Assembly: GCA_021796215.1 (NCBI GenBank) | Contig: JAJYOK010000001.1 | Location: 186,001-250,000 of the forward strand | Source of the DNA: Bacteroidota bacterium | GTDB taxonomy: Bacteria > Bacteroidota > Ignavibacteria > UBA10030 > UBA8401 | Length of the DNA stretch: 64,000 bases | Reading direction: 5' to 3' | Shown here: positions 26,846 through 48,800 of the stretch, piece after piece | Numbering within the stretch: the first letter of the stretch is position 1 | Layout: every line of letters begins with the position of its first letter | Position numbers and translations under genes: made by a program | The notes under the pieces: generated by a model | Told to the model about the DNA's origin: nothing | Seen by the model: the letters and a program-made list of their open reading frames with translations, nothing else | Databases searched by the model: none

Positions 26846-29800
26846 ATGTGCATGTTTCGAGCTTCCGGAAAGGTTGTTCTATTTTTACTTTTTCTCCTTC
26901 TTGTACGACGAGAAACGGCAGTTGCACAATTTAGTCAGAATGCGCCGGACATGCGCGTTCTTGATTCGTCCGAACAGGGAATCACGGTTGAATTCGTCCC
27001 ACATTATCTTCCGCTGAAAAAAGATACTGTAAAGGATAAAGTATACGACGTCGTTCAGTTCGAGCGCGGTTTGCCGTTCGATTATGCATTTGCCGGGAAG
27101 CCCGATGTACGATACCGCTCAGTGCTCATTGGCTTGCCGGGGCGGAATGGCAACCGCATTTCAATTGTCCAATCCGATTTCGAAACGATGACTGGGATTT
27201 CGCTTAAAACGATTCCGTCGTTTCAACGAACAAAGGAAGAACAAAAAAATGATTTAGGTCAAGCGAACAATGGTTCAGAAAATTTTCCGGCGGACATTGT
27301 TTCATTGACGAACGTAGGAATTGTTGATGGAATTTTTGTCGGGACAATCACTCTTTGCCCGTTACAGTACCAGCAAACAGCACATACATTAAAAAAATAT
27401 TCGCGCATCGTTTTTCATGTGGACTATGGAACGCCAGAAGGTGTGCGGTCACATGCCGGTACCGTGGATTGGGAAAAACAAGCGCTTATCAACGGCACCG
27501 TTATGGAAAAGTTGTCGGCAAGCCGGCCGCCTCTTGCAAAAACTGCTCAAGTGAACAGCGTCCTTGCCGCCGGCAAATGGGTGAAATTGGAAATTCAATC
27601 TGACGGAATGTATAAGATAGATGCTTCATACTTGCGCACAATCGGAATGGATGCCGCAGTGGGTGGTCCGTTTTCAAGTGTAAAAGTTTATGGAAATAAC
27701 GGGCGCGTTCTTCCTCCGAACCTGAACGTTTCCCGCCCGGCTGATTTAACGCAATTCCCCGTGCTTGTCGTCGACAACAATAACAACGGAAACTTTGATG
27801 CGGACGATTATATTCTTTTTTATGCGCCGGGAGTGACGGGCTGGAATTATTCGCCTTCGCAAAAAACATACTCGCATTATCTCAACCCGTACACAAATTC
27901 CAATTATTGTTTCATTCAATATCTTCCCGGGGAAACGCAAGCAAAAATACAATCAGTTTCTATCAACGGTTCTGTCGGAGGTGATGTTACAACCACAGTG
28001 GGGAAAGTATTTTTCCATGAAGAAAAAACCAATGTCACCCATTCCGGTTTGGAATGGTACAGCTCGCCGTTTGATGCGCTCGTTGCCACAACTCGCGTGA
28101 TTAGTAACAAGTTGGACGGATACACTACCGGTACGCCGGTAACCTATAAGTACGAACTTCTTTCCCGTGCTGATGTTTCTTCGTCTTTCACTTTAACGGA
28201 ATCGGACAAATTTTTGACAACTGTTCCTATTCCGGCAATGACAAATGATGTGTTGAATGATCCCGCCGCGGTGTATGAATACTCAAAGGCAGGTCAAGTG
28301 ACAACTGTGCCTAACCTTGTTGATCAGCGAAGTAATTTGAAACTGGTCTATCGTGCCGACAGCAAGGCGGCAATCGGATGGATTTATTGGATTGAAATTC
28401 TTTATACACAGCAGCTCGTTCCGGTCAGCGATGAACTGCTTTTTACTTCTCCGGATACAAGCGGCACCGTCGAATATAATCTGTCGGGATTTTCGAGCAG
28501 TAATGTGAGCGTCTTTGATGTGACAAATGTTTTTAATGTCCGATCACTTGCAGTGACGCAAGCACAAGAGGCGGGCCGAATTCTGTTCAAAGATACACTC
28601 TCCTCAGGTTCGATTAAAAAGTATTGGGCAGGAACATCTGCCGCGTATAAGACTCCAGCATCGTTTACCGCAATTCCAAATTCGAACCTGCACGGAATCA
28701 CATCCGGAGCAGATTTTGTCATTATCACTCATCATGATTTTCTTACGCAAGCCCAGCAGTTGCGTGATTACAAACAGAATCTTCCCGGCGGTGACGCCTT
28801 GCGGACGATGGTCGTGGAAGTTGATACTCTTTATAATGAGTTCGGCGACGGCATGCCTGATCCCACGGCAATTCGCGATTTTTTGAAATATGCGACGACA
28901 CAGTGGCAGGTGCCGCCGAAATATGTTTTGTTTTTTGGCGATGCGACGTATGATTACAAAAATATTCTGAGGGAGACAAAAGACTGGGTACCAACGTACG
29001 AGACTTCTACAACGCGCGACCAAATATATACGTATGCTTACGATGATTATTTCTGTTCTCTTGATCCACTGAACAGTACAACAGTTTCTATGGCACACGG
29101 AAGGTTAGCTGTTCGTACTCCGGAAGAGGCGCAATTGGTTGTTGATAAAATTATGCAGTACGAAGCAAAACCCTCACACGGTGCGTGGCAAAATATTATC
29201 ACGATTGTGGCAGACGATGGCTATGTGAACGATGCAAATTATGACGAAACATTCCATACAACCCAAGCAGAGAATCTTGCAACTATCGACACCCCAAAAA
29301 TATTTGATGTGAAAAAAATCTATGAGGTTGATTATCCGACTGTGATCGCTGCTACGGGACATCGCAAGCCTGCGGCGCGGCAGGCAATTCTCGATCAGGT
29401 GAATCGCGGAACGCTTGTGTTGAATTTTACTGGTCACGGTAATCCAACAGTATGGGCGCACGAATCCATTCTTACGCAAAGTGATGTTAACTCACAATTT
29501 TTTAATGCTGACAAACTCACGTTTGTTTGTGCGGCAACATGCGACTGGGGAAGATTTGATGACGGAAATACGCAAAGCTCTGCAGAAGATATTATTACAA
29601 ATCCGAATGGCGGAGCGATTAGTGTGTTCAGTGCAGATCGCGCGGTGTATTCGGGAGACAATGCACTAATCAATTATAAATTTTATGATTATACTTTCCC
29701 CCAAAACCCTTATCAACGAACACTGCGTCTTGGAGATGCGGTGATGCTTGCAAAGAACAATGCGGGCAGTGATCCGGATAACAATCGAAAATATCATTTG

Positions 29801-30904
29801 CTCGGTGATCCGACGCTGCGTCTTGCCGTTCCTCGGCTTGTGATGAGCATTGATTCAATCAACGGTATTCCGCTTTCACAATCGCAGTCGGATACTCTCA
29901 AGGCTTTCGAAAAGGTTACAATAAAAGGAGCCGTACGTGACAATAATGGATCCGTTCAAACGGGCATCAACGGAACAGCATTGGTAACAGTGTTCGATGC
30001 ACAACGTAATCGTCATATTGTTGATTATGGCTTCGCTTATAATTTTGTCCAGGCGGGCGGAATTATTTACAAAGGAGAAGATACGGTAAGGAACGGACAG
30101 CTTTCTGCCACGTTTATAATTCCCAAAGATATTTCCTATGAAAATAAAAGCGGAAAGCTGTCTGTTTATTTTTCGACGCCGACCAGCGATGGGCGTGGTT
30201 ATACAGAAAATGTCGTCATCGGAGGCACAAGCAGCGATACGATCGTAGATACGCAAGGTCCTTCCATTCGAATTTATTTGGATGATAATTCATTTCGCTC
30301 CGGCGATCTTGTCAATGAAAATCCAGTACTGTATGTAGACCTCAGCGACAGCGGCGGTATCAATACTTCTACCAGCGGCATCGGTCACGGTCTCACCGCG
30401 TGGTTGGATGACAGTTCAAAAGGAATTGATCTCAGCGATTACTACACGGGAAAAAAAGACAGTTATCAAGAAGGAACGGTTCAGTATCAATTACCGGGAT
30501 TAGCACCGGGACGTCATACCTTGCAGGTGAAGGCGTGGAATGTGTATAACTATTCATCTTCGGATCATGTGGAATTCACTGTTGCCCCGAGCACAACACT
30601 TTCTTTGCAGAATGTGTACAATATTCCCAATCCGGTTACTGTTGCAAGGACGACGTTCACTTTCCAACAAAATCAACTGACGCCGATTGATGTTCACATT
30701 AAAATTTACACCATTGCCGGACGGCTTGTTCAAACTATTGATCGTTATGCGGTTGCTGACCGCTTTGTTGAAATTCCGTGGGACTGCCGCGACCGCGACG
30801 GCGATTTGCTCGGGAACGGAATTTATCTCTATAAAGTTATGGCAAGTACAATAGACGGAAACATGACGAGTGAAGCTTTGGGGAAGCTGGCAATTGTTCG
30901 GTGA
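26846..30904 (+). CDS. porU: type IX secretion system sortase PorU
   Basis: A 1352-residue gingipain-like (C25) cysteine peptidase that, in the T9SS, removes C-terminal sorting domains at the cell surface and attaches cargo to the membrane. The signal peptide covers about 1-27 (RRETAVAQ). The C25 core lies around 630-1000: FVIITHHDFLTQAQQLRDYKQ, KYVLFFGDATYDYKN, catalytic His864 in NFTGHGNPTVW and catalytic Cys899 in ATCDWGRFDD. A C-terminal FlgD-like module ends the protein (IYTIAGRLVQTI ... GNGIYLYKVMAS). The start could also be the ATG two codons downstream (26852). It precedes porV by about 70 bases, the order known from Bacteroidota. Confidence 0.93.
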   Translation: MCMFRASGKVVLFLLFLLLVRRETAVAQFSQNAPDMRVLDSSEQGITVEFVPHYLPLKKDTVKDKVYDVVQFERGLPFDYAFAGKPDVRYRSVLIGLPGRNGNRISIVQSDFETMTGISLKTIPSFQRTKEEQKNDLGQANNGSENFPADIVSLTNVGIVDGIFVGTITLCPLQYQQTAHTLKKYSRIVFHVDYGTPEGVRSHAGTVDWEKQALINGTVMEKLSASRPPLAKTAQVNSVLAAGKWVKLEIQSDGMYKIDASYLRTIGMDAAVGGPFSSVKVYGNNGRVLPPNLNVSRPADLTQFPVLVVDNNNNGNFDADDYILFYAPGVTGWNYSPSQKTYSHYLNPYTNSNYCFIQYLPGETQAKIQSVSINGSVGGDVTTTVGKVFFHEEKTNVTHSGLEWYSSPFDALVATTRVISNKLDGYTTGTPVTYKYELLSRADVSSSFTLTESDKFLTTVPIPAMTNDVLNDPAAVYEYSKAGQVTTVPNLVDQRSNLKLVYRADSKAAIGWIYWIEILYTQQLVPVSDELLFTSPDTSGTVEYNLSGFSSSNVSVFDVTNVFNVRSLAVTQAQEAGRILFKDTLSSGSIKKYWAGTSAAYKTPASFTAIPNSNLHGITSGADFVIITHHDFLTQAQQLRDYKQNLPGGDALRTMVVEVDTLYNEFGDGMPDPTAIRDFLKYATTQWQVPPKYVLFFGDATYDYKNILRETKDWVPTYETSTTRDQIYTYAYDDYFCSLDPLNSTTVSMAHGRLAVRTPEEAQLVVDKIMQYEAKPSHGAWQNIITIVADDGYVNDANYDETFHTTQAENLATIDTPKIFDVKKIYEVDYPTVIAATGHRKPAARQAILDQVNRGTLVLNFTGHGNPTVWAHESILTQSDVNSQFFNADKLTFVCAATCDWGRFDDGNTQSSAEDIITNPNGGAISVFSADRAVYSGDNALINYKFYDYTFPQNPYQRTLRLGDAVMLAKNNAGSDPDNNRKYHLLGDPTLRLAVPRLVMSIDSINGIPLSQSQSDTLKAFEKVTIKGAVRDNNGSVQTGINGTALVTVFDAQRNRHIVDYGFAYNFVQAGGIIYKGEDTVRNGQLSATFIIPKDISYENKSGKLSVYFSTPTSDGRGYTENVVIGGTSSDTIVDTQGPSIRIYLDDNSFRSGDLVNENPVLYVDLSDSGGINTSTSGIGHGLTAWLDDSSKGIDLSDYYTGKKDSYQEGTVQYQLPGLAPGRHTLQVKAWNVYNYSSSDHVEFTVAPSTTLSLQNVYNIPNPVTVARTTFTFQQNQLTPIDVHIKIYTIAGRLVQTIDRYAVADRFVEIPWDCRDRDGDLLGNGIYLYKVMASTIDGNMTSEALGKLAIVR

Positions 30905-30976
30905 GTAGTGTTGTTATCGTTGACCAAGAAAATTAAAAATGTTACATTATTATAAATCAGCAAAGGAATGATTTGT

Positions 30977-32104
30977 ATGAAGAAGTTTGGAATTTTTCTG
31001 GCAGTACTTTTATTGTGTGCAAGCGGAGAAGAATTGCGTGCGCAGAGTACAATAACAACTGCCGTTCCCTTTCTCCTTATTTCCCCGAATTCCCGCGCCA
31101 GCGGCATGGGAGAAACAGGAACAGGGCTTGCGGATGATGCCGCGGCGATTTACTGGAATCCCGCCGGACTTGCTTTTTTAAAGGGAAGTGAAGTAAGCAT
31201 TTCGCACGCGAACTGGCTGCCACAGTTTCATCTCTCGGATCTTTTTTATGATTATCTGAATTACCGTGAAGATGTTCCGGAATGGGGCGGAAGTATTGCG
31301 GCGAGCGTGACCTATTTGAACTTAGGCGAGTTCATTCAAACGGGCGAAGGAGGGCCGACTGAAATCGGACGGTTCAAAGCTTTCGAATATGCGGCAACAT
31401 TCGGGTATGGAACTGTTGTTGCAGACAATCTTGGATTAGGCATGAATATTCGTTTCATTAACGATCGTTTATCACCGATTGGCACTGCGAATGAAAAAGG
31501 GAACGGTATTGCGTACGATGTGAGCTTCGATTTTGGATTTCTTTATAAACCGAAAACGCTCATTATTCCGTTCACAGATGTCGATCTGGGCAACGAGTTC
31601 AGCGTTGGGATGAATCTATCCAACATGGGACCGAAAGTTACCTATGTAGATGCAGCACAGGCGGATCCGCTGCCGACGAATTTACGGCTCGGTTTCGGTT
31701 TCGTTCCAGTACACGATGAATTCAACAGCCTCAAGTTTGCGCTTGATTTCAGTAAGTTGATGGTGAGCTATTACACGGATGCCCAAGGAGTTACCCACTC
31801 TGATCCCTTTTACAAAGCGATCTTCACTTCGTGGACTGACAGATCGCCGAGCAATGAGTTGCGAACGATTGTTTCCTCAGTCGGCATGGAGTATACATAC
31901 GACTCGCTGATATCATTCCGCACGGGATATTTTTATGAAGATCCGAATTTCGGCGGAAGAAAATTCATGACATTCGGCGCCGGCATCCGGTACGACATTT
32001 ACGGATTTGATTTCAGTTATGTGTACACGGCATCGGATCAGAACAGCCCGCTTTCCGATACACTGCGGTTCACGCTTCTTATTTTATGGGGCGGCGTAAA
32101 TTAA
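30977..32104 (+). CDS. porV: type IX secretion system outer-membrane protein PorV
   Basis: A barrel of about 375 residues of the FadL-like PorV family, which shuttles T9SS cargo from the SprA channel to PorU. The signal peptide ends ELRAQ. The diagnostic segment LISPNSRASGMGETGTGLADDAAAIYWNPAGLAFLKG follows, then TYLNLGEF and paired beta strands to the end (RFTLLILWGGVN). The ORF track starts at 30968, but AAAGGA (30962-30967) abuts that ATG and lies nine bases before the ATG at 30977, so 30977 is chosen. It is downstream of porU in one likely transcript. Confidence 0.9.
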   Translation: MKKFGIFLAVLLLCASGEELRAQSTITTAVPFLLISPNSRASGMGETGTGLADDAAAIYWNPAGLAFLKGSEVSISHANWLPQFHLSDLFYDYLNYREDVPEWGGSIAASVTYLNLGEFIQTGEGGPTEIGRFKAFEYAATFGYGTVVADNLGLGMNIRFINDRLSPIGTANEKGNGIAYDVSFDFGFLYKPKTLIIPFTDVDLGNEFSVGMNLSNMGPKVTYVDAAQADPLPTNLRLGFGFVPVHDEFNSLKFALDFSKLMVSYYTDAQGVTHSDPFYKAIFTSWTDRSPSNELRTIVSSVGMEYTYDSLISFRTGYFYEDPNFGGRKFMTFGAGIRYDIYGFDFSYVYTASDQNSPLSDTLRFTLLILWGGVN

Positions 32105-32185: not shown

Positions 32186-35100
32186 ATGACGAAAAAAATT
32201 TCGCTTTCAGCGTCAGCCTCCATTGTGGGCGCTGCGTTATTTATTCTCTTTTCATATTCGTATAGCGGCCAGCATCTGGCTCATCCGGTACGGGCTGAAG
32301 AAAGTTCTTTTTTTTCGGGACATATTCCTGTTTACGAGCACTCATTTCCCGATACGTTAAAAGTGTTAGCGGTGATGGTACAATTCGTGCCGGATTCGAG
32401 CGAGTTAACGTCCGGGAACGGGCAATTTGATCTTTCTACCGCACCGCAGCGTATCCTTGACGCGCCGCCGCGCGATTCTGCTTATTTCGCCGATCATCTC
32501 CTTTTTGCTCAAAACTATTTTCACAAAGCTTCAAACGGTAAACAGAACATTACGGCAACAGTGCTGGGCGGCGTCTTGACTCTTCCTCACCAAATGCGAG
32601 ACTACAGTCCGGAAGATACAACAAATTTGCCGCTCGCCAATCTTGCCGTTGACGCATGGCGCATGGCAGATTCGCTGTACCCTGCATTCCCGTTTCAAAA
32701 TTATGATCTCTTTGTTGTCTTTCATGCCGGTTCAGGAAAAGATGTTGATCTGCGCGGCTCACTCGGTTACGATCCAACGCCGTACGATTTGCCGTCACTC
32801 TATTTTGACCTCAGCGGTTTTCGTCAGGCTCTCGGCTCATCGTTCAGCGGAATTACGCTGCCAAACCATCCGGCATTCACAATCACAAACAGCGCAATTC
32901 TTCCCGAAACGGAAAATCGTCTCATTCCGGGAATCGGCGGCGACGTTCTGCTGCAGTTGAGCATCAATGGGTTGATGGTGGCGAGTATCGGAAGTCATCT
33001 CGGCTTGCCCGATTTATTTGATACGAAAACGGGTGGAACAGCGATCGGCCGTTTCGGTTTGATGGACGGCCAATCCATTTTTAGTTTTTCAGGATTGTTT
33101 CCGCCGGAACCATCAGCATGGGAAAAAATTTATTTAGGATGGACAACACCGATTACTGTGCCGTCAGGGCATTCAACGCTGAGCATTCCTGCGGCCAGTT
33201 TGACAACGGGCGGGAATGATACAATCTATAAAATTCCAATCAGCGCGAAAGAATATTTTCTCGTAGAAAACCGCAATCGCGATGTGAAAAACGACGGGCA
33301 AACATTGACGATCCGCTGGAATGGTGAACAATTTACGAAGCAGTATGCAGAGGATGATCCTGATTTCAATGCGTCAAATGTTGATTCGATTTACGGAACA
33401 GTGGTGAATGTTGACGATTTGGATTGGAGCTTACCCGGCGCTATCGGCTACACCGGCGGAATTTTGATTTGGCACATTGATGAAACCATCATTGACAATA
33501 ATCTCGCGACGAATTCCATCAATGCCGATCCGGAACATCGCGGCGTGTACTTAGAGGAGGCGGACGGCTCGCAGGATATTGGTCAATCGTACGGACTGAT
33601 AGATCCCGGCAGCGGAAGCGAGGACGGTACGCCGCTCGATTTTTGGTACAGCGGAAACGATTCGCCAGTCTATCAAAATGAATTTTCAGAAACTTCTCAC
33701 CCGAATTCGCTCAGCAATTCTTTTGCACATTCGTTCGTTACGCTGAATCATTTCAGCAGTGCCGCGCCGGTGATGACATTTCAAACCCAGCTCGGCACTG
33801 CGGCGGTGTCGCTGGAAAATATCATCAAGCTTGGCAGCATCAAAGGCAATCAACATGATGCGCCGGTGTTTGCCGATGTTGATGCAGACGGTGCAAAGGA
33901 AGTTGTTTACGCGTCGGGCGATTCTATTTTTATTTTGAAGAACGGAGTTGCTTCCTTGGTTTCGCCGTTTGGCGGCACGCTGCAGCCTGCGATTGCAAGC
34001 ATTGCCGATACAAACCGGATCGTTGCAGTGCACGACAGCTCGCTCTATATTTTCCGTTTGAAAGCGGTTGGAAATGCTTTCAATTCCGAGATTATGAGTT
34101 CAGTCAATACGCCAACATTGTTGTCCTCACCGGTATTTTCGAGAAACGTCTCTAACCCGCAGTTGTTTGTCGGTGGAGCGGATGGCTCACTTTTCACTTT
34201 TTCGACTGCTACGCAAACACTTTCTTCATCTCATATTATTTCTTCGCCTGTAGTTGGTGCAGCGCTCTATTCTGATTCTTCGTTGCTTGCTTATACTTCG
34301 GACACAGTTGTTTCGAGCTGGCAAAAAGTGTGGAGTTTCGCAGGAAGAAAAATTCTTGCTGCATCGTTTGGGCAGTTTGATAACAACAGTGTTGCTTCAT
34401 CGTATCTTGTTGTAGTAACAAATGATAATACTGTCACGCTTTGTCCTCCATCAGTTCTTATGCACACCACCCCGACGTCTTTGGAAAATGATTTGCAGTC
34501 ATTTTCGGTCAACGCCAATGTTACCGGCTCGCTTGCACTTGCCGATGTGAATGGCGACGGTCAGCTTGATATTCTTGTTGGTACCGATCAAGGATTGTTT
34601 GCGTTCAATAAGAACGGCGTACAGATCGAGCACTTTCCGTTGAAAACTCTCGACGGCGGTTCAGTGGTCGGTTCGCCGGTGATTGCAAAAACTCCTTCCG
34701 GCTCCGTTGGGATTTTTTTCGGGAGTTCGAATGGACAGGTTTACGGATTTGACAATAATGGAAAATTGCTCGCCGGGTTTCCTATCCAAACGAGCGGTAT
34801 TGTTTCGTCGCTTGCGATGAACGGCAGCGAGCTGGCGGCGGTTTCAACCGATTCATCGTTGTATGTCTGGAATGTGAACGGTGTTTTTGATTCCACAAAA
34901 ATTCTCTGGAACGGATTGTATGCCGATGAATATCATTCCAACGCTGTGCTTCAAACCGGCGCGGTTACATTCAAATCGTCTGAACTTTTGCCGCCGTCGT
35001 TCGCCTACAATTGGCCCAATCCGGTGTACGATAAAACGACGAACATCCGCTATTACCTGAGCAAACCTGCAACAGTTTCGATAAAGATTTTCAATATGGC

Positions 35101-35266
35101 AGGAGAGCTTGTTGATGAATTTTCCGGTCCCGGAATGGCGAACCTCGACAATGAAGTTCAGTGGAATGTTTCGAAAGTACAGAGCGGTGTCTACTTCGCG
35201 CAAATCAAAGCGGTATCCGCCGGCGAAGAAAAAAGTGTGATCATTAAAATTGCCGTGGTGAAATGA
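32186..35266 (+). CDS. M6-metallopeptidase-like T9SS cargo lacking the HExxH zinc site
   Basis: A 1026-residue secreted protein. Hydrophobic residues 11-25 act as signal peptide. Residues 55-480 follow the M6 (immune inhibitor A-like) pattern: LKVLAVMVQF, NYDLFVVFHAG, then SHLGLPDLFDT, FGLMDGQSIF, LGWTTPITV and GGILIWHIDETI. In active members the residues just before GLPD read HExxH; here they are ASIGS (266-270), so both zinc histidines and the glutamate are gone. Residues 560-900 carry FG-GAP/propeller-type repeats (APVFADVDADGAKEVVYASG, ALADVNGDGQLDILVGTD). The last 85 residues are a T9SS sorting domain (NWPNPVYDKTTNIRYYL, SGVYFAQI). It is likely a non-catalytic surface binding protein. 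Confidence 0.8.
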   Translation: MTKKISLSASASIVGAALFILFSYSYSGQHLAHPVRAEESSFFSGHIPVYEHSFPDTLKVLAVMVQFVPDSSELTSGNGQFDLSTAPQRILDAPPRDSAYFADHLLFAQNYFHKASNGKQNITATVLGGVLTLPHQMRDYSPEDTTNLPLANLAVDAWRMADSLYPAFPFQNYDLFVVFHAGSGKDVDLRGSLGYDPTPYDLPSLYFDLSGFRQALGSSFSGITLPNHPAFTITNSAILPETENRLIPGIGGDVLLQLSINGLMVASIGSHLGLPDLFDTKTGGTAIGRFGLMDGQSIFSFSGLFPPEPSAWEKIYLGWTTPITVPSGHSTLSIPAASLTTGGNDTIYKIPISAKEYFLVENRNRDVKNDGQTLTIRWNGEQFTKQYAEDDPDFNASNVDSIYGTVVNVDDLDWSLPGAIGYTGGILIWHIDETIIDNNLATNSINADPEHRGVYLEEADGSQDIGQSYGLIDPGSGSEDGTPLDFWYSGNDSPVYQNEFSETSHPNSLSNSFAHSFVTLNHFSSAAPVMTFQTQLGTAAVSLENIIKLGSIKGNQHDAPVFADVDADGAKEVVYASGDSIFILKNGVASLVSPFGGTLQPAIASIADTNRIVAVHDSSLYIFRLKAVGNAFNSEIMSSVNTPTLLSSPVFSRNVSNPQLFVGGADGSLFTFSTATQTLSSSHIISSPVVGAALYSDSSLLAYTSDTVVSSWQKVWSFAGRKILAASFGQFDNNSVASSYLVVVTNDNTVTLCPPSVLMHTTPTSLENDLQSFSVNANVTGSLALADVNGDGQLDILVGTDQGLFAFNKNGVQIEHFPLKTLDGGSVVGSPVIAKTPSGSVGIFFGSSNGQVYGFDNNGKLLAGFPIQTSGIVSSLAMNGSELAAVSTDSSLYVWNVNGVFDSTKILWNGLYADEYHSNAVLQTGAVTFKSSELLPPSFAYNWPNPVYDKTTNIRYYLSKPATVSIKIFNMAGELVDEFSGPGMANLDNEVQWNVSKVQSGVYFAQIKAVSAGEEKSVIIKIAVVK

Positions 35267-35366: not shown

Positions 35367-38300
35367 ATGCGAATTACTTTTTTCTACATATTCACTTTTG
35401 TTTTCATAACCGCGTTTTCCGCGCTCGCTCAGGATGGAGATTTCACTCATCCAGAATTGCAGTGGTACACAATTGAAACGCCGCATTTTTATGTGAACTA
35501 TCACAGCGGTGAAGAACGAACCGCAAAGGTGATTGCAAAAGTTGCCGAAGACATTTACGGTCCGGTCACCTCATTGTACCATCATCAGCCGGATCAAAAA
35601 GTGAGCATCGTCGTGAAGGATTACGACGATTATTCGAACGGCGGCGCATATTTCTATGACAACAAAATTGAAATTTGGGCACCGGCGCTTGACTTTGATC
35701 TTCGCGGCACGCACGACTGGCTGCGCAATGTGGTGACGCACGAATTTACTCACATTGTACAGATTCAAACATCCATGAAATTCGGCAGACATGTGCCGGG
35801 AATTTATTTTCAATGGCTTGGTTACGAAGCGGAACGCCGTCAGGATGTTCTCTATGGTTATCCGAATGTGATCGTGTCGTATCCGATTTCCGGTTTTCTT
35901 GTGCCGAGCTGGTTTGCGGAAGGCGTGGCGCAGTACAATCGGCCAGAGCTTGGGTACGATTCGTGGGATTCGCACCGCGACATGATTCTCCGCATGTATG
36001 CGCTCAACAATAATATGCTCACGTGGGATGAGATGAGCGTGTTTGGAAAAACGAGTCTCGGCAATGAGTCATCGTACAACGCCGGTTTTGCACTGGTGAA
36101 ATATATTTCCGAAACGTACGGCGAGGATGCGCTTCGCCGCATTGCAAAAAATCTTTCACGTCTTACTGAAATCAGTATTGGCGACGCTATCGAGCGGGCT
36201 GTAGGGAAGAGCGGCAGGGAGGTGTACAATGAATGGAAAGAACATATTACTGCGGAATATAAACGACGCACTGAACCGATTCTTCAGCATAAAGTTGAAG
36301 GGAATGAAATAGCTTCCGTCGGGTTCGGAAATTTCTATCCGGCATTTTCGCCTGACGGAAAAGAAATTGCTTACACTTCGAACAAAGAAGAAGATTATTT
36401 CGGGCTCTCTTCTATTTATGTGTATGATGTCGTCACGAAAACTGAAAAGGAACTTATTGATAAAGTTCATTCATCGCTGTCGTGGTCGCCGGATGGGAAG
36501 AAAATATATTATTCGAAGATCTCGCGTGATAATCCGTATTGGTCTGGTTACTCGGATGTTTATGTCTGCGACATTGCGACCGGCGAAGAAACACGCCTCA
36601 CGCATGCCGCACGCGCCATCAATCCTTCTGTTTCTCCGGATGGAAAAGAAATTGCTTATGCGACCGAAGCTGATGGCACGATGAATATCTGCGTGGTTGA
36701 TGCTGATGGAAATAACATTCGCCAACTGACACACTTTACTGAAGGGGAGCAAGTCTTCACGCCGAAATGGTCGCCCGACGGCTCGTCCATCGTTTTCGGT
36801 TATGCAACACGCGATGCGCAGGATGTTGCACGCGTTTCTGTTGCTGATGATGCGTTCGAAGATTTAATTCCCGGCGATGACGATTCACGCAATCCTGTCT
36901 ATTCACCCGACGGAAAGAGAATATTTTTTGTTTCTGACCGGACAGGAATTTTCAACGTATATAGTTACGACGTTGCGACGAAGGCGATTCAGCAGATAAC
37001 GAATGTCATTGGCGGCGCGTTTATGCCGACGGTCAATCAGTCAGGCAACATTGCATATGCTTCGTACACTTCCACTGGATTTAAAATCGCCCTTTTAAAG
37101 AATGCAGCGCCGCAGGAATTTGCCGGAAATGAATATCTTCCGCCGAAAAGCCGCCCGCTTGCGTCGTTATCCGACACAGCAGTTGAGAATCAATTTGATT
37201 GGAATAAGCTCCGTGCATTTGACGATACAAAACTGCCTGATGATTCGTCGCGGTCATACCGAAATATTTTCAGCAGTCTTTCAGTCATTCCGCTTATTCG
37301 TGTTGACAATTATAACACGAAGAACAAAGGTTTGGACGATATCAAGCTCGGCGGTTATTTTCTTTCTTCCGACATGCTGGATAAGTACAGCATCTTCGGC
37401 GGTGCGGCAATTAACCGCGAGCTTGAACGCGATATTTTTTTCACGTTTGAATATCGTGACCGGATTTTAGGGTTGTGGAAACTCGGATGGTCGCCGTCAG
37501 TCTCGTTCGAAGTCTATAACATCACGCGAAACAGTACCGGCTCTTTCGATATTTTTACAAATCGTCCGGTGAATATCAACCTTGGCATCACCTACGGCTT
37601 GTTAGAATTCGACCTGCTTTTTAAGCAGCATCTTTTTATGCCTTCGGATTTGCTGACGTACGGAGCGTCGTACAGCCGCTATAGTACAGATGTCAGTTCG
37701 TTTGTCATCCCCGGCGATGCCAATTACCAGCCGATAGATGTTCCGGGCTCGAGCGATTTGTATTTCAAGGGAACAGATCTTTCTCTCCAGTACCAGTTCG
37801 AAGCAATTCATCCGTCGCGTGACGCCGACATTAATCCGGTCGGAATGAAATTTAATTTCCGGTACGATTACGAGTTGAATCGTTTCAACGCAACAGGGGA
37901 ATATGAGGCGAGCGAAAACGGCCTCAATCCAAAGCTTGATCCTTTCGATTTTCACCGTGCAGAACTTCATCTCGATACGCATTTTCAATTGCCCGGATGG
38001 AAACATACGTTGTCGCTTTCGCTGCGCGGAGGAACAATCTTTGGGCCCGAGGTTCCGGACTTTTTCGATTTTTATGCCGGCGGTTTAGCGGGAATGAAAG
38101 GTTATCCGTTCTACGCGATCGGCGGCAATGAAATTGCCACCGCAAATCTGACGTACCGCTTTCCACTGTGGCAAAATATTGATGCGCGATTCCTGCAATT
38201 GTACTTCGATAAATTGTACGCTTCAGTGCACTACGATTTTGGCGATGCGTGGACAGGCAATCCCGCGATTAGGAATTTCAAAAAAGATGCCGGGTTTGAG

Positions 38301-38465
38301 CTGCGGCTTGAATCGTATTCGTTCTATGCATATCCTACAAGAATTTTCTTCAACGGAACATACGGCTTTGATTCGTTCACGTTTGTCAACAGCTATGCGA
38401 ATGCAAGGTACGGCAAGGAGTGGAGGTTTTATTTCGGCGTGCTGTTCGGTTTTGATATTGACTGA
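35367..38465 (+). CDS. zinc peptidase / beta-propeller / outer-membrane barrel fusion
   Basis: A 1032-residue protein with three parts. After a signal peptide (1-22, FSALAQ), residues 30-290 form a gluzincin of the peptidase MA type: TPHFYVNYHSGEE, zinc motif HEFTH (125-129) and the third ligand Glu185 in WFAEGVAQY. Residues 310-570 are TolB-like propeller blades (FSPDGKEIAYTSNKEED, WSPDGKKIYYSK, SVSPDGKEIAYATEADG). Residues 640-1032 read as an outer-membrane barrel with an Omp85/BamA-like end: GGLAGMKGYPFYAIGGNEIATANLTYRFPLW and DKLYASVHYDFGDAW. The zinc ligands are all present, so it should be active. The model is a surface- or periplasm-facing protease tethered to its own barrel. It has no sorting domain, in keeping with being a membrane protein. 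Confidence 0.8.
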   Translation: MRITFFYIFTFVFITAFSALAQDGDFTHPELQWYTIETPHFYVNYHSGEERTAKVIAKVAEDIYGPVTSLYHHQPDQKVSIVVKDYDDYSNGGAYFYDNKIEIWAPALDFDLRGTHDWLRNVVTHEFTHIVQIQTSMKFGRHVPGIYFQWLGYEAERRQDVLYGYPNVIVSYPISGFLVPSWFAEGVAQYNRPELGYDSWDSHRDMILRMYALNNNMLTWDEMSVFGKTSLGNESSYNAGFALVKYISETYGEDALRRIAKNLSRLTEISIGDAIERAVGKSGREVYNEWKEHITAEYKRRTEPILQHKVEGNEIASVGFGNFYPAFSPDGKEIAYTSNKEEDYFGLSSIYVYDVVTKTEKELIDKVHSSLSWSPDGKKIYYSKISRDNPYWSGYSDVYVCDIATGEETRLTHAARAINPSVSPDGKEIAYATEADGTMNICVVDADGNNIRQLTHFTEGEQVFTPKWSPDGSSIVFGYATRDAQDVARVSVADDAFEDLIPGDDDSRNPVYSPDGKRIFFVSDRTGIFNVYSYDVATKAIQQITNVIGGAFMPTVNQSGNIAYASYTSTGFKIALLKNAAPQEFAGNEYLPPKSRPLASLSDTAVENQFDWNKLRAFDDTKLPDDSSRSYRNIFSSLSVIPLIRVDNYNTKNKGLDDIKLGGYFLSSDMLDKYSIFGGAAINRELERDIFFTFEYRDRILGLWKLGWSPSVSFEVYNITRNSTGSFDIFTNRPVNINLGITYGLLEFDLLFKQHLFMPSDLLTYGASYSRYSTDVSSFVIPGDANYQPIDVPGSSDLYFKGTDLSLQYQFEAIHPSRDADINPVGMKFNFRYDYELNRFNATGEYEASENGLNPKLDPFDFHRAELHLDTHFQLPGWKHTLSLSLRGGTIFGPEVPDFFDFYAGGLAGMKGYPFYAIGGNEIATANLTYRFPLWQNIDARFLQLYFDKLYASVHYDFGDAWTGNPAIRNFKKDAGFELRLESYSFYAYPTRIFFNGTYGFDSFTFVNSYANARYGKEWRFYFGVLFGFDID

Positions 38466-38532: not shown

Positions 38533-39420
38533 ATGAAAACGCTCGGAATTTTTTTATTGTTTCCTGTCGTCGTTTTTGCCGGCGAGCATTCTCTGACCGG
38601 GAATGCGAGAGTAGATCTGCTTTTTGTTTCCGCGCAGCAACTTGATTCTTCGCAAACATCTCAGCCAACGATTCAGGGCGCGAGCGCAGAGATGAAGAAA
38701 CCGCTCTTAGCTGCGGCGATGTCTCTTGTTGTGCCGGGCGGAGGCGAATTTTACTCGGGGAGTTACGTTAAGAGCGCAATTTTTTTCTCCGCTGAAGTTG
38801 CCGCTATTGCAGTTGCACTTACATACAATTCACAAGCGAATTCGAAAACAAACCAGTTTGAAGCGTACGCGAATGCACACTGGAGCGCCGTGCGGTACGC
38901 GAAATGGATTGTGAACCATGGCGTTAACGATTACGGACCGACAAGCCCCGCCCCAACTCCCACAGATTATAATGCCATCGCCAATCATGATTTTTCAACA
39001 ATCAACGCGTGGGAAAGCGGTTCTCATTCCGAAGGATTCACGCATCTGCTTCCTAAGTATGGCGAACAGCAGTATTATGAATTGATCGGAAAATATGACC
39101 AATACAAATTCGGATGGGATACATATCCTCAGGATGCGAATGGCGTTCCGGTATCGGATGGCAACGATTACTATGGCATGGTACCTCAGCAGATGTTGAA
39201 TTACGACGCTGACAGAGGGAAGGCAAATAACTATTATTATATTGCAGGAATCGCAACAGGAGTCGTTGTTGTAAATCATGTGCTGAGTGCGCTTGATGCT
39301 GCGTTATCAGCAGCGTCACATAATAGAACAATTGAAACGCGGGTAGGAATGCGATTACAAAATATTGATGGCAATACAAGTGAGTTGGTGCCTGAATTCC
39401 ATCTGTCACTGAATTTTTAA
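38533..39420 (+). CDS. DUF5683-like exported/membrane protein
   Basis: A 295-residue protein with a signal peptide (1-16, VVVFAG). Residues 55-95, KKPLLAAAMSLVVPGGGEFYSGSYVKSAIFFSAEVAAIAVAL, have the proline-glycine turn and membrane segment typical of DUF5683-type proteins, and a second hydrophobic stretch occurs near 240-265 (YYIAGIATGVVVVNHVLSALDAALSA). It ends in beta strands. Function is unknown. A ribosome binding site AAAGGAG is 8 bases before the ATG. Its position after the T9SS-related genes suggests envelope work, nothing more. The preceding gap contains a GCAGAGGCGCTGAGG-type sequence. Confidence 0.65.
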   Translation: MKTLGIFLLFPVVVFAGEHSLTGNARVDLLFVSAQQLDSSQTSQPTIQGASAEMKKPLLAAAMSLVVPGGGEFYSGSYVKSAIFFSAEVAAIAVALTYNSQANSKTNQFEAYANAHWSAVRYAKWIVNHGVNDYGPTSPAPTPTDYNAIANHDFSTINAWESGSHSEGFTHLLPKYGEQQYYELIGKYDQYKFGWDTYPQDANGVPVSDGNDYYGMVPQQMLNYDADRGKANNYYYIAGIATGVVVVNHVLSALDAALSAASHNRTIETRVGMRLQNIDGNTSELVPEFHLSLNF

Positions 39421-40645: not shown

Positions 40646-41210
40646 AACCTTAGTAATTGCCACATTTCCTCAACACTCAACCTTATTACCTTATTTCTTT
40701 AGACGCAATGCTTTTTTCGTAAAATTTCATAAACGATTCATATTCCTCCTTAAAGCCTACTTTTCGATGGTGATTCGGCTGGTTAAGGATGTATTTACAA
40801 ACTCTGTCAACATCTGCCTTTGAGACGGAAAAAGCAGCCGCTGAGTCTTGCCATGCAAACCGCCCGGCACAAAGTTTAATTTCGTTGATAAATCGTTCCG
40901 AACTTTCAGCGATAATTGTCGCCAGGTCTTCTTCTGAAATTGCTGGAGAGCGTGATACAAGAAAATGAACATGTTCTGGATTTGCATAGATTGCGTACAT
41001 TTTAGAGTCGTTGTTGTTTACTATCCCGGTAATGTATTTTTCAATTCGTACTCTGTGTTTTTCAAGAATAGCGGGGAAGCGATTCAATGTTATGAAAATA
41101 AAGTGGGTATACAAGTTGTTGTATTTTATTTTCATTTTCATTTGCCTCTTGATTTTGTTCATAAGGTAATAAGGTTGAAAGATTGTTTAGCAGTCTCTGT
41201 TACTAAGGTT
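40646..41210. mobile_element. solo tyrosine-transposase unit with flanking inverted repeats
   Basis: AACCTTAGTAA (40646-40656) and CAACCTTATTACCTTAT (40678-40694) on the left are matched in inverted order by ATAAGGTAATAAGGTTG (41161-41177) and TTACTAAGGTT (41200-41210), all perfect. The inner 17-bp arms overlap both the start and the stop codons of the transposase ORF. This resembles a REP-associated tyrosine transposase (RAYT) flanked by its own repeats. The unit sits between the two LPS permease genes. Confidence 0.75.
40686..41162 (-). CDS. REP-associated / IS200-like tyrosine transposase
   Basis: A 158-residue Y1 HUH transposase. NLYTHFIFITLNRFPAIL opens the domain; the metal-binding HUH motif is HVHFLVS near residue 65; and FAWQDSAAAFSVSKADVDRVCKYILNQPNHHRK contains the catalytic Tyr. 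The HHRKVGFKEEYESFM ending is common in this branch. The enzyme works on single-stranded DNA with a tyrosine-DNA intermediate. The ATG lies in the right-hand inverted repeat; internal starts at Met8 or Met10 are possible. No second ORF (TnpB) is present. It looks intact. Confidence 0.88.
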   Translation of the reverse strand: MNKIKRQMKMKIKYNNLYTHFIFITLNRFPAILEKHRVRIEKYITGIVNNNDSKMYAIYANPEHVHFLVSRSPAISEEDLATIIAESSERFINEIKLCAGRFAWQDSAAAFSVSKADVDRVCKYILNQPNHHRKVGFKEEYESFMKFYEKSIASKEIR

Positions 41211-42843: not shown

Positions 42844-45800
42844 GTGCATTCACAAATTTTCCGCACGTCCCGGCAAGTCGGGATGGTTTTCAACTTAACG
42901 CGGTTGACTGTTTTCTCAATCCTTCTAGTGATATTTCGTATTCCGACATTCTTCCGACAAGATTTTCCTGCTCGATGGAATCATCAGGCAGGCAAGCGCT
43001 TCTTTTTCATCCTCACAATAGCCGGAGTGTGCGTTCTCGGCTTCTCATTTGAGCCGGATGAACCTTCTATGGCTTTCCTGGCGGATGCCTCTGCGTCGGC
43101 TGCTGTAAGTTCATCTCCATTTATCTTCAGCGATGCAGCTTCTGCCGAACAGGATTCGTTCCCGCAAGCCGGAGGACTTTCTCGTCGTGCGCTTGCTCGG
43201 CTCAACGGCGCAGGAGCCGACACAACCACTTTCTTCGGAGTTGATACGGCAGCATTGAGGCGTGCAGCATTGATGCCGCGTGATTCGACTGCGCGGCTTG
43301 CACAATTTTTGTATCATCGGGAAGATTCGCCGGTCGTTTCGCTTTTCCAGCCGCACACGTACTCGCTTTTCCTGAAACCGCCGGCTGTTCTCATGCATAC
43401 TGTGGAATTGGATTCGACAGGCCAGTTCGTCATCATTCGTGAAATGGTGGATGGCAAAGACGTAAAAATTCCGCTGAAAGTTCCGCTCAAAGAATATATT
43501 GAGAAGAGATTATTATTCGAACAGCAGCGATATTTTGCAGATCAGGTTTATAAGTATGAAGGAATAAAGAAGCGCGATGAGTTGGGTGAACTGTTAGGCT
43601 CATTCACCAATATTGATATCCCGATTCCCGCCAATCCGGTTTTCAGCATTTTCGGTCCGCCGCACATTAACCTTCACATTTCCGGTGCGGTTGATATTAC
43701 GGCGGCATTTCGCAACACGGTAACCGACCAATCTACATTGTCGGCGCTCGGCAATTCACGCAATGAGCCGGATTTCAAACAAGATGTGCAGATCAATATC
43801 AATGGTACAATCGGCGACAAGTTGAATATTCTCGCCGACTGGAACACGCAGCGCACGTTTGAGTATGAAAACCAACTGCACATCAAATACACTGGTTACG
43901 AGGATGAAATTGTTCAAAGCGTAGAAGCCGGCAACGTTTCGCTTGCGACCAATTCACAATTCATCTCGCCGAGCGCAGCGCTCTTCGGCATTAAAACGCA
44001 AATGAAATTCGGTCCGTTGACGCTCGTTTCCATCGCGTCGCAAAAGAAGGGGCAAATCAAAGATTTGACGGTTTCCGGTGGAACGACAACTGTGCCGTTC
44101 GAGATTCACGCCTATCAATATTCCCGCGATCATTATTTTCTTGATACGAGCTACATTCCATTATTCGAACAATACTATTCGGATGAGTCTCGTCCAACCG
44201 ATGCAAGCAAGCACATTTCGGATTGTGAAGTCTATGTTACCCACACGAATCTTGATCCTCAGAACTCTATACAAGCAACCGCGTATGCGTACCTTCCGGC
44301 TATTACAGATTCTGCTGCATACAACAAGTTCAAAGACCCAAATTTCCAGACTTCTCAGGAAGCAAGCGACCTGATCAATAATGGAGAACTTGCTGTCGGG
44401 CGCTGGGACAAGCTTGTGCCGGGGCAGGATTATGTTTTGCATGATTATACCGGTTACATTTCGTTGAACCGTTCTGTGCCGGACAATCAAGCCATTGCTG
44501 TAGCGTATCGTACGGACAGCGGACCGAATTCAGTGTACGGTGTGTTGTCAAGCGTGAAAAGTGTTCAGGATTCTATTATTGTGTTAAAGTTAATTCGCCC
44601 GGTCAATCTAATTCCACGATACCAAACCGCGTGGAAACTGATGCTGAAAAATATCTATTCCCTCGGAGGCAGGAATATCAAGCCGGATGGCTTTAAGCTC
44701 GACATTCAATATAAGATTCCGGGTCAAGACCCAATGTCGGAAATTAATGGAAATTATTTTCTGAAGATTTTCGGGTTTGATAATTTCAAATCTGATAATA
44801 CTCCCGGACAGGACAACACATTTGATTATCTTCCCGGTATTACCATTGATGAGACCCGTGGCGAAGTTATTTTTCCTTCGACGGAGCCGTTTAGAAAGAG
44901 TCTGATACAGTTTTTTGGCAGTGATACAGCAACATCTGACAGTTTGATTTATCCGGATGTTTATGACACACTGGCGAGCGCCGCGCAGAACAACACACAG
45001 CGTGATCGTTTTGTTATTACCGGACAAACGACAGCCGGAAGCTCGAATACGTATAATCTTGGTTTCAATATTGTTGAAGGAAGCGTGCAGGTTATTCTCA
45101 ACGGCGAACCGCAGAAATTGAACTCTGATTATACGGTTGATTACATTACCGGTCAGGTGATTATCAAGAATCAAGCGGCGCTGGTGCCCGGTGCGAATTT
45201 ACAAATCAAATATGAGCAGAACGATCTGTTCCAGCTTGCATCGAAAACATTGTTGGGTACACGCGGCGATTTAAATCTTTCCGATAAGACCGGTTTCGGT
45301 TTCACCGTGATGAATCTGAATCAGCAAACGCTCAGCGACAAAGTACGTTTAGGTGAAGAGCCAACCAATAATACCATCTTTGGAATTGACGGTCATACCT
45401 CGCTTGATTTACCGTTCCTTACCAAAGCGCTGGACGCCCTGCCGTTTGTTTCTACAAAAGCACTGTCGAATATCAATCTGCGCAGCGAAGCAGCATATAT
45501 GTCGCCGAATCCTAACACAAAGACGAGCCTTATTGCAAGCGATGGAGGAAAAGGTGTCGCGTACATAGACGATTTTGAAGGAGCAAAACGCACAATTCCG
45601 CTTGGAGACAATTACGGGCAATGGCACGATCTCAGTGTACCGGCTTATATTGATGGAGTGGATCCGATTACGGGCAACCCGATTCCAGACACAACGAAAA
45701 TATTTTCCAAGGCAAAAACGTATTGGTACAACCAGCTGCCATATAGCGGCGTAAGTGTAACCGATATATGGCCGGCGAAACAAGTAACTCAAGACCAGCA

Positions 45801-48800
45801 AAATGTAACGGTGTTGGATGTTCAGTACGATCCCCGTACGCGCGGGGAGTATAATTATTCCATGAATCTGAGCCGAAATTTTGGTTCTAATGCACCTGCT
45901 GATACTGTGAAAAAAAACTGGGGTGGAATGATGAAGCTTGTTTCTTCAGGTGTTGTGAATTTGGTGCAGGAAAATATCGGCTACATCGAATTGTGGGTTC
46001 AGTCGAATCCGGCTGTACTCGATTCAACAAAAAAGGTCTACATTGACCTTGGCGAAATCAGCGAGGATGTGATACCAAATCGCAAACTCGATAATAAAGA
46101 AGCGGGGACTGTTCAGACGGGGCTTGTGACGGCGGAGCGAGACTTAGGCTTGGATGGTGTGTCAGATGCAGATGAACGATCCGTGTATGCGCAATTTGTG
46201 GCTGCGAATCGTGACGCGTTTTCCGATATCGTTAATGATCCGGCAGGCGATGATTTTAGAACCAACACTAGCGAAGACTACCGTTTTGTCAATGGCACCG
46301 AAGGAAACATGAATAGTGAAATTGGCAGATTTCCGGATACGGAAGATTTGAACGGCAACAATTCGCTCGATTTGAACAACAGTTATTTCGAATATGAATT
46401 GAACCTTGACACCACTTCAGCAAATCCGCAGCGCGTCGGCGGCGGAAACAAAAGATGGTACGAGTATCGGATTCCTATTAATGAATTCATTCGCAAAGTT
46501 GGCTCTCCCGATCTTTCCGTCATTGAATTTGTGCGCGTCTGGTTCAAAGGATTTGATCAGCAGGAGTGGCTCCGCATTACGGAATTCAATCTTGTCGGCA
46601 ATCAATGGCAAGTGAATAACAAATCTGCTGCTGATACCACAATGTCAGTTAGTGTCGTCAGCATCGAAGATAATCCGCGAACGTACACCAGCCCGCCTGG
46701 CGTTGGCCGTGCCGTGGACAGAACGCAGACGGCGCAGTCATCGCAAACGATTTATCAAAACGAGCAGTCACTTTCGCTTGTTGTCAATGGACTTCAGGAT
46801 GGCGACAGCCGTCAGGCAATCAAATGGTTTACTTATAAGCCGCTTGACCTTTTCAGCTATCGCGTTCTGAGAATGTTCGTTCACGGTGATGAGGGACCGC
46901 CATATTCACCAAACAAACGTTTCTCAGATGATTCGAATAATCCCGATGCATATCTTTTCATCCGTTTCGGCTCCGATACGTTGAATTATTATGAATATCG
47001 TGAGCCAGTGCTGCCGGGATGGCATCCTGATAATACGATCAACATTCCGTTCACCGACCTCACGGCAATTAAACAAGGGCGTGATTCGACGAATCAAGTT
47101 ATAACTGTTGGAGTGCCAAACGGTCCACCCGGTTCAACGTACAGCGTGCTTGGAAACCCGACCCTGACAAATGTTTCATTTATTTCTGTCGGTATTTATA
47201 ATCCGCCGGGAAAAGGTGTGCAAGCATTAACCGGTGAAGTGTGGATTGATGAATTGCGTCTTGCCGATCCGGACAATACGCCGGGGTGGGCGTACAGCAT
47301 TTCGTCGCAGATTGCATTAGCTGATATCGGCAACCTGTCATTCAATTATCAACAGGTTGATCCGTTTTTCCATCAGCTTGAAAATCAATTTGGAAGCCGC
47401 ATTGACGGCAAAAGCTGGGGAGTGTCAGCGAATTTTTCATTGGAAAAATTTCTTCCATCGTCATGGACAGGAACATCGCTGCCCTTTAGTTACAACCATC
47501 AGGAATCGGTGAGCAAGCCGCGGTATTTACCAAGCTCGGATATTATTGTCACTCAAGCCGCTGATAGACAGCGACAGATTGTAACGCATAAAACAGGATC
47601 AGCCGCCGCCGGGAATGCTGCGGCAAACGATCTTATCCTGCAGTCGCAATCGCTTTCGACTACCAATACGTATGCGCTTCCCACAATTAAGTTCGTGTTT
47701 CCTTCAAACAAGTGGTACATCAGAGATATTTTGAATCAGTTGACCTACGGGTTCAATTACACGATTTCAACAATGCGCAATCCGACAACGGCGTATCAAG
47801 AGTCGTGGTCTTGGGCAGGACGAATGTCGTACGCATACCAAACGAGTCCTAATTTGTATCTTATGCCGTTTTCTCTTTTTGGAAACACAGGTATTATTTC
47901 GGATTTGAAAGACTTTCATCTTTATTACATTCCAATCACAAACATCGGTGCAAATCTTTCTGTTACTCGTTCGCAGACTCATCAGCTTTTGCGTTCACAA
48001 ATTCAGCAAAGCGCCCCGACACGCGGTTTCAGCGCAACCCGTTCAATGAACTTTAACTGGAAGCTGACGGAAAACGGCTATTTGAATCTTTCCGGTGATT
48101 ACTCGGTTGATATTGCCAGCACTCTTGCGCAGCTTGAAACAGACCAGTACAACCGTCAGCGTGCTTTCACCGACATGGTAGGCGACCTGTTTTTGAAGGA
48201 TCAATTCATCAACTTCGGACGCGATTATTCGTACAATCAGAATATTAATGTCAACACACGTCCGCGGTTTCCCGGATTTTTAGGATTGGATAAATATCTA
48301 ACGCTGTCATCACGATATTCCGTTTCGTATCGCTGGTCAAATAATCTTCAACAGGGAGATTTAGGAAAGGGAGCGGGATGGGGAAATAATATTTCGTTCT
48401 CAACGGATTTTAATTTAAAATCATTTGTTGATACGTGGTTCCCGGCTCTTCCTGCGACAACGGAGAATACGTTACCACAGCTCCCTCAACAACAATATCC
48501 GCCGCCTGAAGCGTCGCCGCGCGGCAGGCGTTCTGAAGGAGCGAATCCTGCCCAGCCGCCGCTGCCTGATACTACGCATCGTGCAATATCTGACACAACT
48601 CGGCCCGCTTTGAACGACACAACGAAGCTTGCTCAGCCGTTAGATACTGTTGCTGTGCCGGCTCCGCCGCCGAAGAAAAAAATTTCTCCCAAGGAAGCGT
48701 TGATTCAAATTGCGCGGCTATTTATTAAAACACCGCTTTTGGATTACGATAAAGTGAGTCTGACATTTACTCAGACGAATTCGTCGCAGAATCCCGGCAT

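Follow-up and report, generated by a model that had tools for sequence, protein, structure and literature searches.

Omp85 proteins share two short motifs: the tip of L6 carries (V/I)RG(Y/F), and (F/G)xDxG lies on strand 13 of the barrel (PMC4490367). Ten Omp85 subfamilies have been distinguished, including WD40-Omp85, which carries a TolB-like propeller and which is given no assigned function in the main text of that study (Heinz and Lithgow, 2014; PMC4104836). WD40-Omp85 was still among the uncharacterised groups in the 2024 paper on PlpD, the only fusion of an enzyme to an Omp85 barrel that has been studied in cells, in which the enzyme domain stays in the periplasm (PMC11116518).

Here we describe a protein, called P0001 below, that is encoded at 35367..38465 on the + strand of a 64,000-nucleotide stretch of an Ignavibacteria genome (assembly GCA_021796215.1, contig JAJYOK010000001.1; this stretch is called the window). 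All coordinates below are those of the window and of its + strand unless stated otherwise. P0001 joins in a single chain a zinc protease site, a propeller and an outer-membrane Omp85-type barrel, and its gene stands in an operon of the type IX secretion system (T9SS) beside that of an inactivated M6-like metalloprotease, called M6i. A literature search, which reached a minority of the subscription journals, found no paper on P0001, on M6i, on an M6 pseudoprotease in T9SS or on T9SS in Ignavibacteria. The reading that we prefer, with a probability of about one half, is that P0001 is an outer-membrane-anchored, periplasm-facing zinc protease that is paired with M6i as a T9SS-linked accessory. 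Its domain architecture and the pairing have solid computational support; its catalysis, its side of the membrane, its contact with M6i, its substrate and its mechanism are what we infer.

Domain organization of P0001

The open reading frame of P0001 is translated into 1032 amino acids. Residues 1-22 (35367..35432), ending in SALAQ, are predicted from reading the sequence to be a signal peptide, with no lipobox Cys. They are followed by a gluzincin-type peptidase domain at about residues 26-306 (35442..36284), as judged from the Pfam model Peptidase_MA_2 and from the secondary structure of the model, a six-bladed TolB-like propeller at residues 313-577 (36303..37097) and a 16-stranded Omp85-type barrel at residues 639-1027 (37281..38447). 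An AlphaFold2 model of the full chain, built on a 36-row alignment, has a mean pLDDT of 87.2 and a pTM of 0.85. The orthologues are full-length and form one family, and a survey for the same order of domains, suggested in the preliminary description of this DNA, found it conserved very widely among them.

According to DSSP, the peptidase part of the model (33-306) is mixed alpha/beta. The HEFTH motif for zinc binding and catalysis occupies residues 125-129 (35739..35753), and the third zinc ligand is Glu185 (35919..35921) within WFAEGVAQY (WFAEGxAQ). Both had been picked out in the preliminary description, and the gluzincin (clan MA(E)) pattern of HExxH with a downstream Glu recurs in every one of 122 non-identical orthologue sequences, which go down to about 34% identity with the window copy. 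As H125, E126, H129 and E185 are identical in all 122, the active site argues for retained catalysis, short of proof. Scanned singly, all 36 aligned members match Peptidase_MA_2 at E<=0.1, the best at 1.4e-12; the window copy does so at E=1.3e-6 with 28.8 bits, slightly short of the Pfam cut-off of 32.4. When solved structures were searched by sequence with profiles of the peptidase and the barrel, no credible relative was found.

The propeller consists of 24 strands, including a closing strand at 313-316, and six blades can be counted in the DSSP string. It matches PD40 repeats in Pfam (E=6.2e-26) and the TolB model TIGR02800 (E=3.4e-49, under the model's own cut-off), and a Foldseek search with the full-chain model matched TolB at 1.1e-11, so that the TolB-type blades of the preliminary description are borne out in sequence and in fold. 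The matches of P0001 in a plasmid collection were at the level of the propeller only.

The T9SS locus

Upstream of P0001 lie, in this order, PorU, the T9SS sortase and a C25 peptidase (26846..30904; NF033707, 1.2e-301), PorV, the T9SS outer-membrane shuttle (30968..32104; NF033710, 1e-79, above the cut-off), and M6i, an M6-like pseudoprotease with a T9SS type A sorting tail (32186..35266; NF052323, E=2.9e-261). Downstream follows a DUF5683 protein (38533..39420; PF18935, 2.1e-5, slightly short of the cut-off) and, further on, SprA/Sov, the T9SS translocon (42844..50028; TIGR04189, 1105 bits). Between DUF5683 and SprA there are two genes for LptF/LptG-type permeases on the opposite strand, and a Y1 transposase of the IS200/REP type lies between these two (40686-41162, - strand; PF01797, 8.9e-17). 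The window genome has a very rich repertoire of T9SS cargo and PorV-like proteins, with 107 matches to type A sorting tails and about 20 to the PorV family. P0001 itself is not a T9SS cargo, a possibility ruled out by the absence of a sorting tail: a type A or B C-terminal sorting domain was looked for with Pfam and none was found.

A linkage to porU and porV had been proposed as worth surveying, and the order PorU-PorV-M6i-P0001 was found in every named locus of the Ignavibacteria type with enough flank. Among such loci, on contigs from one Bacteroidota/Ignavibacteria scan, M6i stands directly upstream of P0001 in 65 of 65, PorV is in place in 59 of 59 and PorU in 54 of 54, and DUF5683 lies downstream in 56 of 64. 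The median gap between adjacent genes is about 20 bases in most genomes. The same order extends to most of the distant families of the phylum, where an automatic count placed M6i beside P0001 in 11 of 17 loci; this count is low for trivial reasons, namely an over-extended start of M6i in two loci (L045 and L053) and a nearby contig end in another (L046), and the genuine exceptions are L049-L051. The place of P0001 in the operon is fixed in at least two-thirds of the families that carry it. LptF/LptG and SprA adjoin the locus only within a part of the order to which the window belongs. Two members of the window's family (G252 and G258), with genomes of 1.7 Mb that are 95-100% complete, keep a full-length P0001, which hints at an important role.

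Pairing with the pseudoprotease M6i

The tightest partner of P0001, as judged from gene content and order, is M6i, which the preliminary description did not name. The model that it matches, NF052323, is entitled 'T9SS-dependent M6-like inactivated metalloprotease', and none of the 84 M6i sequences retains the aligned HExxH site, which instead reads.IGSH, ..GSF or similar; one of them has a HExxH by chance at another place. In a survey of 248 genomes of the phylum, with P0001 called at E <= 1e-80 and M6i at E <= 1e-20, both proteins were found in an identical set of 95 genomes with no exception, the next best genome for P0001, at 6.8e-41, having a paralogue below the calling threshold. The Fisher P value of 4e-71 for this co-occurrence is overstated because species are not independent data points, and the independent joint losses seen are few, two or three.

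Does this pairing then mean more than common descent? P0001 might be a plain housekeeping protease of the envelope, its association with M6i being long co-inheritance in an operon with nothing functional in it, as their close adjacency in most genomes and the inheritance of the gene set largely by whole families would allow. Three kinds of genomes speak for a bond that goes beyond shared ancestry. The first are those in which P0001 and M6i are unlinked and both are nevertheless kept, as in families f18 and f33; there are seven such genomes (examples are L049-L051, L142, L143, L145, L146). The second, also seven in number, come from a single family (G061, G081, G108, G119, G171, G203 and G235); they have no PorU and keep PorV, M6i, P0001 and SprA. 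The third are remnant loci from which both genes are gone together. In G151, PorV and DUF5683 remain and the pair between them is gone; in G227, PorV remains and both the pair and DUF5683 are gone; in G239, PorU-PorV remain and the contig continues with unrelated genes in place of the pair. G151 and G227 belong to one genus, so that their loss may be one event, and in G239, where neither P0001 nor M6i was found genome-wide, unassembled copies elsewhere are conceivable. In the face of these genomes co-inheritance alone looks improbable, and the co-occurrence suggests that P0001 and M6i work as one unit.

The PorU-less genomes raise another question: could P0001 remove the T9SS sorting tails instead of PorU? 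The seven P0001-positive genomes without PorU keep PorV, SprA and sorting tails, and no C25 peptidase was found in them. On the other hand, PorU is also present in 88 of the 95 genomes with P0001, and G151 and G227, which have none of PorU, P0001 and M6i, each keep nine sorting tails besides SprA and PorV. A role as an alternative sortase is thus very improbable, and P0001 was rejected as a stand-in for PorU on account of these two genomes, which have sorting tails without either protein. Taken together, the nine genomes of this family (loci such as L056, L138-L141, L163 and L164 belong to them) have SprA, PorV and 7-33 type A tails; neither PorU nor any C25 peptidase was found in them, and their T9SS seems to run without a sortase, on fewer cargo proteins than in PorU-bearing relatives. 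Conversely, 82 of 170 genomes with PorU lack P0001, so that P0001 is not a core component of T9SS but an accessory at most.

The Omp85-type barrel

An Omp85-like ending of about 390 residues had been assigned to the chain from its letters, with a soluble beta domain as the reading that would speak against it. In both AlphaFold2 models, of the full chain and of the barrel only (pLDDT 84, pTM 0.78), this region folds into 16 long strands over 389 residues, and the best 50 Foldseek matches of the barrel-only model are exclusively barrels of the Omp85 superfamily (BamA, TamA and Sam50). The best of them is 8xnb (9.0e-9, TM 0.59/0.67, rmsd 7.5), and the full-chain model matches the BamA barrels 8xnb, 9hiv and 6fsu at 5.9e-8, 7.7e-8 and 9.2e-8, respectively. 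Since the RMSD values are high, these matches mean the same fold as Omp85 barrels and not close kinship. The number of strands and the fold matches lead us to infer that the barrel would be closed. With a complete-looking zinc site and an Omp85-type barrel in one chain, a membrane-tethered protease, as suggested in the preliminary description, remains the natural reading.

The barrel of the window copy is detected by none of the Pfam and NCBIfam models, including PF01103 (Omp85), and one of 36 orthologues matches PF01103, at 6.2e-8. A bridge to the superfamily is provided by two divergent paralogues in the same genome, C18 (1074 aa; G000:C18:78571-80289, L038) and C8 (955 aa; G000:C8:75408-76631, L039), which share the domain order of P0001, match Peptidase_MA_2 and PD40, and have an intact HExxH and classical lid-lock motifs. 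Both are above the cut-off of PF01103 (2.9e-12 and 6.0e-11), and the barrel of P0001 was aligned to theirs by hhalign profile comparison with probabilities of 95 and 93, the motifs being in register. No T9SS genes were seen in the stretches read around the two paralogues; that on C18 adjoins an RNase II/R-like gene.

In the model, two motifs of P0001 occupy the lid-lock places of Omp85 proteins. The counterpart of (V/I)RG(Y/F) is M-K/R-G/S/A-Y at residues 910-913 (38094..38105); in the window copy it lies within GMKGYPFY, in the loop that joins strands 11 and 12. Among the 122 orthologues, Y913 is present in 121 and a basic residue at position 911 in 117, Gly follows in only 65, and Val never occurs; many of them have K or Q where the lid-lock arginine would stand. 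The counterpart of (F/G)xDxG is HYDFG at residues 955-959 (38229..38243), with D957 in 105 and G959 in 114 of the 122; strand 13 contains HYDFGDAW in the window copy and F/Y-x-D-x-G in most orthologues. No POTRA domain was matched with Pfam, and the N-terminal part is filled by the peptidase and the propeller in the AlphaFold2 model. Subfamilies without POTRA are known, and POTRA is not required for membership of these.

Such a barrel might work mainly as an insertase or translocase for M6i or for T9SS parts in the manner of BamA, TamA and FhaC, with the peptidase trimming the passing client. Before PlpD, every Omp85 protein that had been studied was one that promotes assembly or translocation (PMC11116518), the lid-lock motifs of P0001 are retained, that of L6 in a relaxed form, and P0001 is paired one to one with M6i in a fixed manner, much as in a two-partner system. 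Nevertheless we regard this role as unlikely: P0001 has no POTRA domain, the T9SS sorting tail of M6i already gives it an exit route, and PlpD shows that an enzyme-bearing Omp85 protein need not be a translocase. Moreover, the genome encodes other Omp85 proteins, at least one of which has POTRA-like repeats and the length of BamA; the identification of P0001 with BamA itself was ruled out on the same ground.

A proposed mode of action

Our preferred reading, a periplasm-facing protease paired with M6i, can be outlined as follows. The Omp85-type barrel would anchor P0001 in the outer membrane, and the peptidase and the TolB-like propeller, which precede strand 1 in the chain, would face the periplasm, the propeller probably gating the active site or docking a partner. 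P0001 and M6i would be two halves of a pair, most likely a T9SS-linked accessory, with M6i as the subunit for substrate recognition or regulation, and the pair would process or quality-control certain proteins of the envelope or the surface.

On which side of the membrane does the protease reside? Strand 1 of Omp85 barrels starts on the periplasmic side, and the peptidase and the propeller should accordingly be periplasmic unless they are exported. This topology, together with the precedent of PlpD, favours a protease located, in all likelihood, in the periplasm rather than on the cell surface. Alternatively, the barrel could export its own N-terminal domains like an autotransporter, so that the protease acts outside with a surface-anchored M6i. 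Both partners would then be on one side of the membrane, and the topology first proposed for PlpD was alike (cited in PMC11116518). Yet the enzyme domain of PlpD was found only in the periplasm (PMC11116518), export would mean the passage of about 600 folded residues through a 16-strand barrel, and P0001 has no T9SS tail; surface display is distinctly unlikely.

An objection to our reading is that, if the protease is periplasmic and M6i is exported by SprA to the surface, M6i could come into contact with the protease only on its way out, or else through the barrel or around it. A bolder version would be an undescribed two-protein unit of outer-membrane proteolysis, in which the dead M6i selects or senses substrates outside, the live gluzincin cuts inside and the barrel couples them. 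We offer this version as a speculation that is probably not correct in full.

Comparison with known systems

Like WD40-Omp85, P0001 has a TolB-like propeller directly before an Omp85 barrel and no POTRA domain. Compared by description, it differs in its conserved gluzincin domain, as the main text on WD40-Omp85 speaks of the propeller only and leaves a peptidase unmentioned (PMC4104836), and to that description it further adds its position within a T9SS operon and its pairing with a pseudoprotease. TolB resembles P0001 in the fold and sequence of its propeller, the score of P0001 being under the TolB equivalog cut-off, whereas TolB is a soluble periplasmic protein with neither peptidase nor barrel. 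BepA and other M48 metalloproteases of quality control are likewise zinc proteases that work on the periplasmic side of the outer membrane (PMC13067283), although they belong to another peptidase family and have neither a propeller nor a barrel of their own.

An enzyme domain other than POTRA before an Omp85 barrel is also found in the 'Metallo' subfamily, which in contrast to P0001 is described with a PF00149 domain and no propeller. PF00149 is, we take it, the family of calcineurin-like metallophosphoesterases and not of peptidases. The subfamily is called a metalloprotease in the main text of Heinz and Lithgow (section 10; PMC4104836), and papers that have since taken over this label may have been misled by it.

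The nearest precedent is the patatin-Omp85 protein PlpD (PMC11116518), in which an enzyme is likewise fused to an Omp85 barrel and faces the periplasm. PlpD differs in being a lipase with one POTRA domain and no link to T9SS, where P0001 has a zinc peptidase and a propeller without POTRA. To the WD40-Omp85 group, which has been without an assigned function since 2014, P0001 would bring an intact protease site, a fixed place in a T9SS operon and a partner, and its function becomes accessible to plain gene deletions. Should the pair be real, it would be a couple of a live and a dead protease spanning the outer membrane, and P0001 would be a further case, after PlpD, of an Omp85 barrel serving as the anchor of an enzyme.
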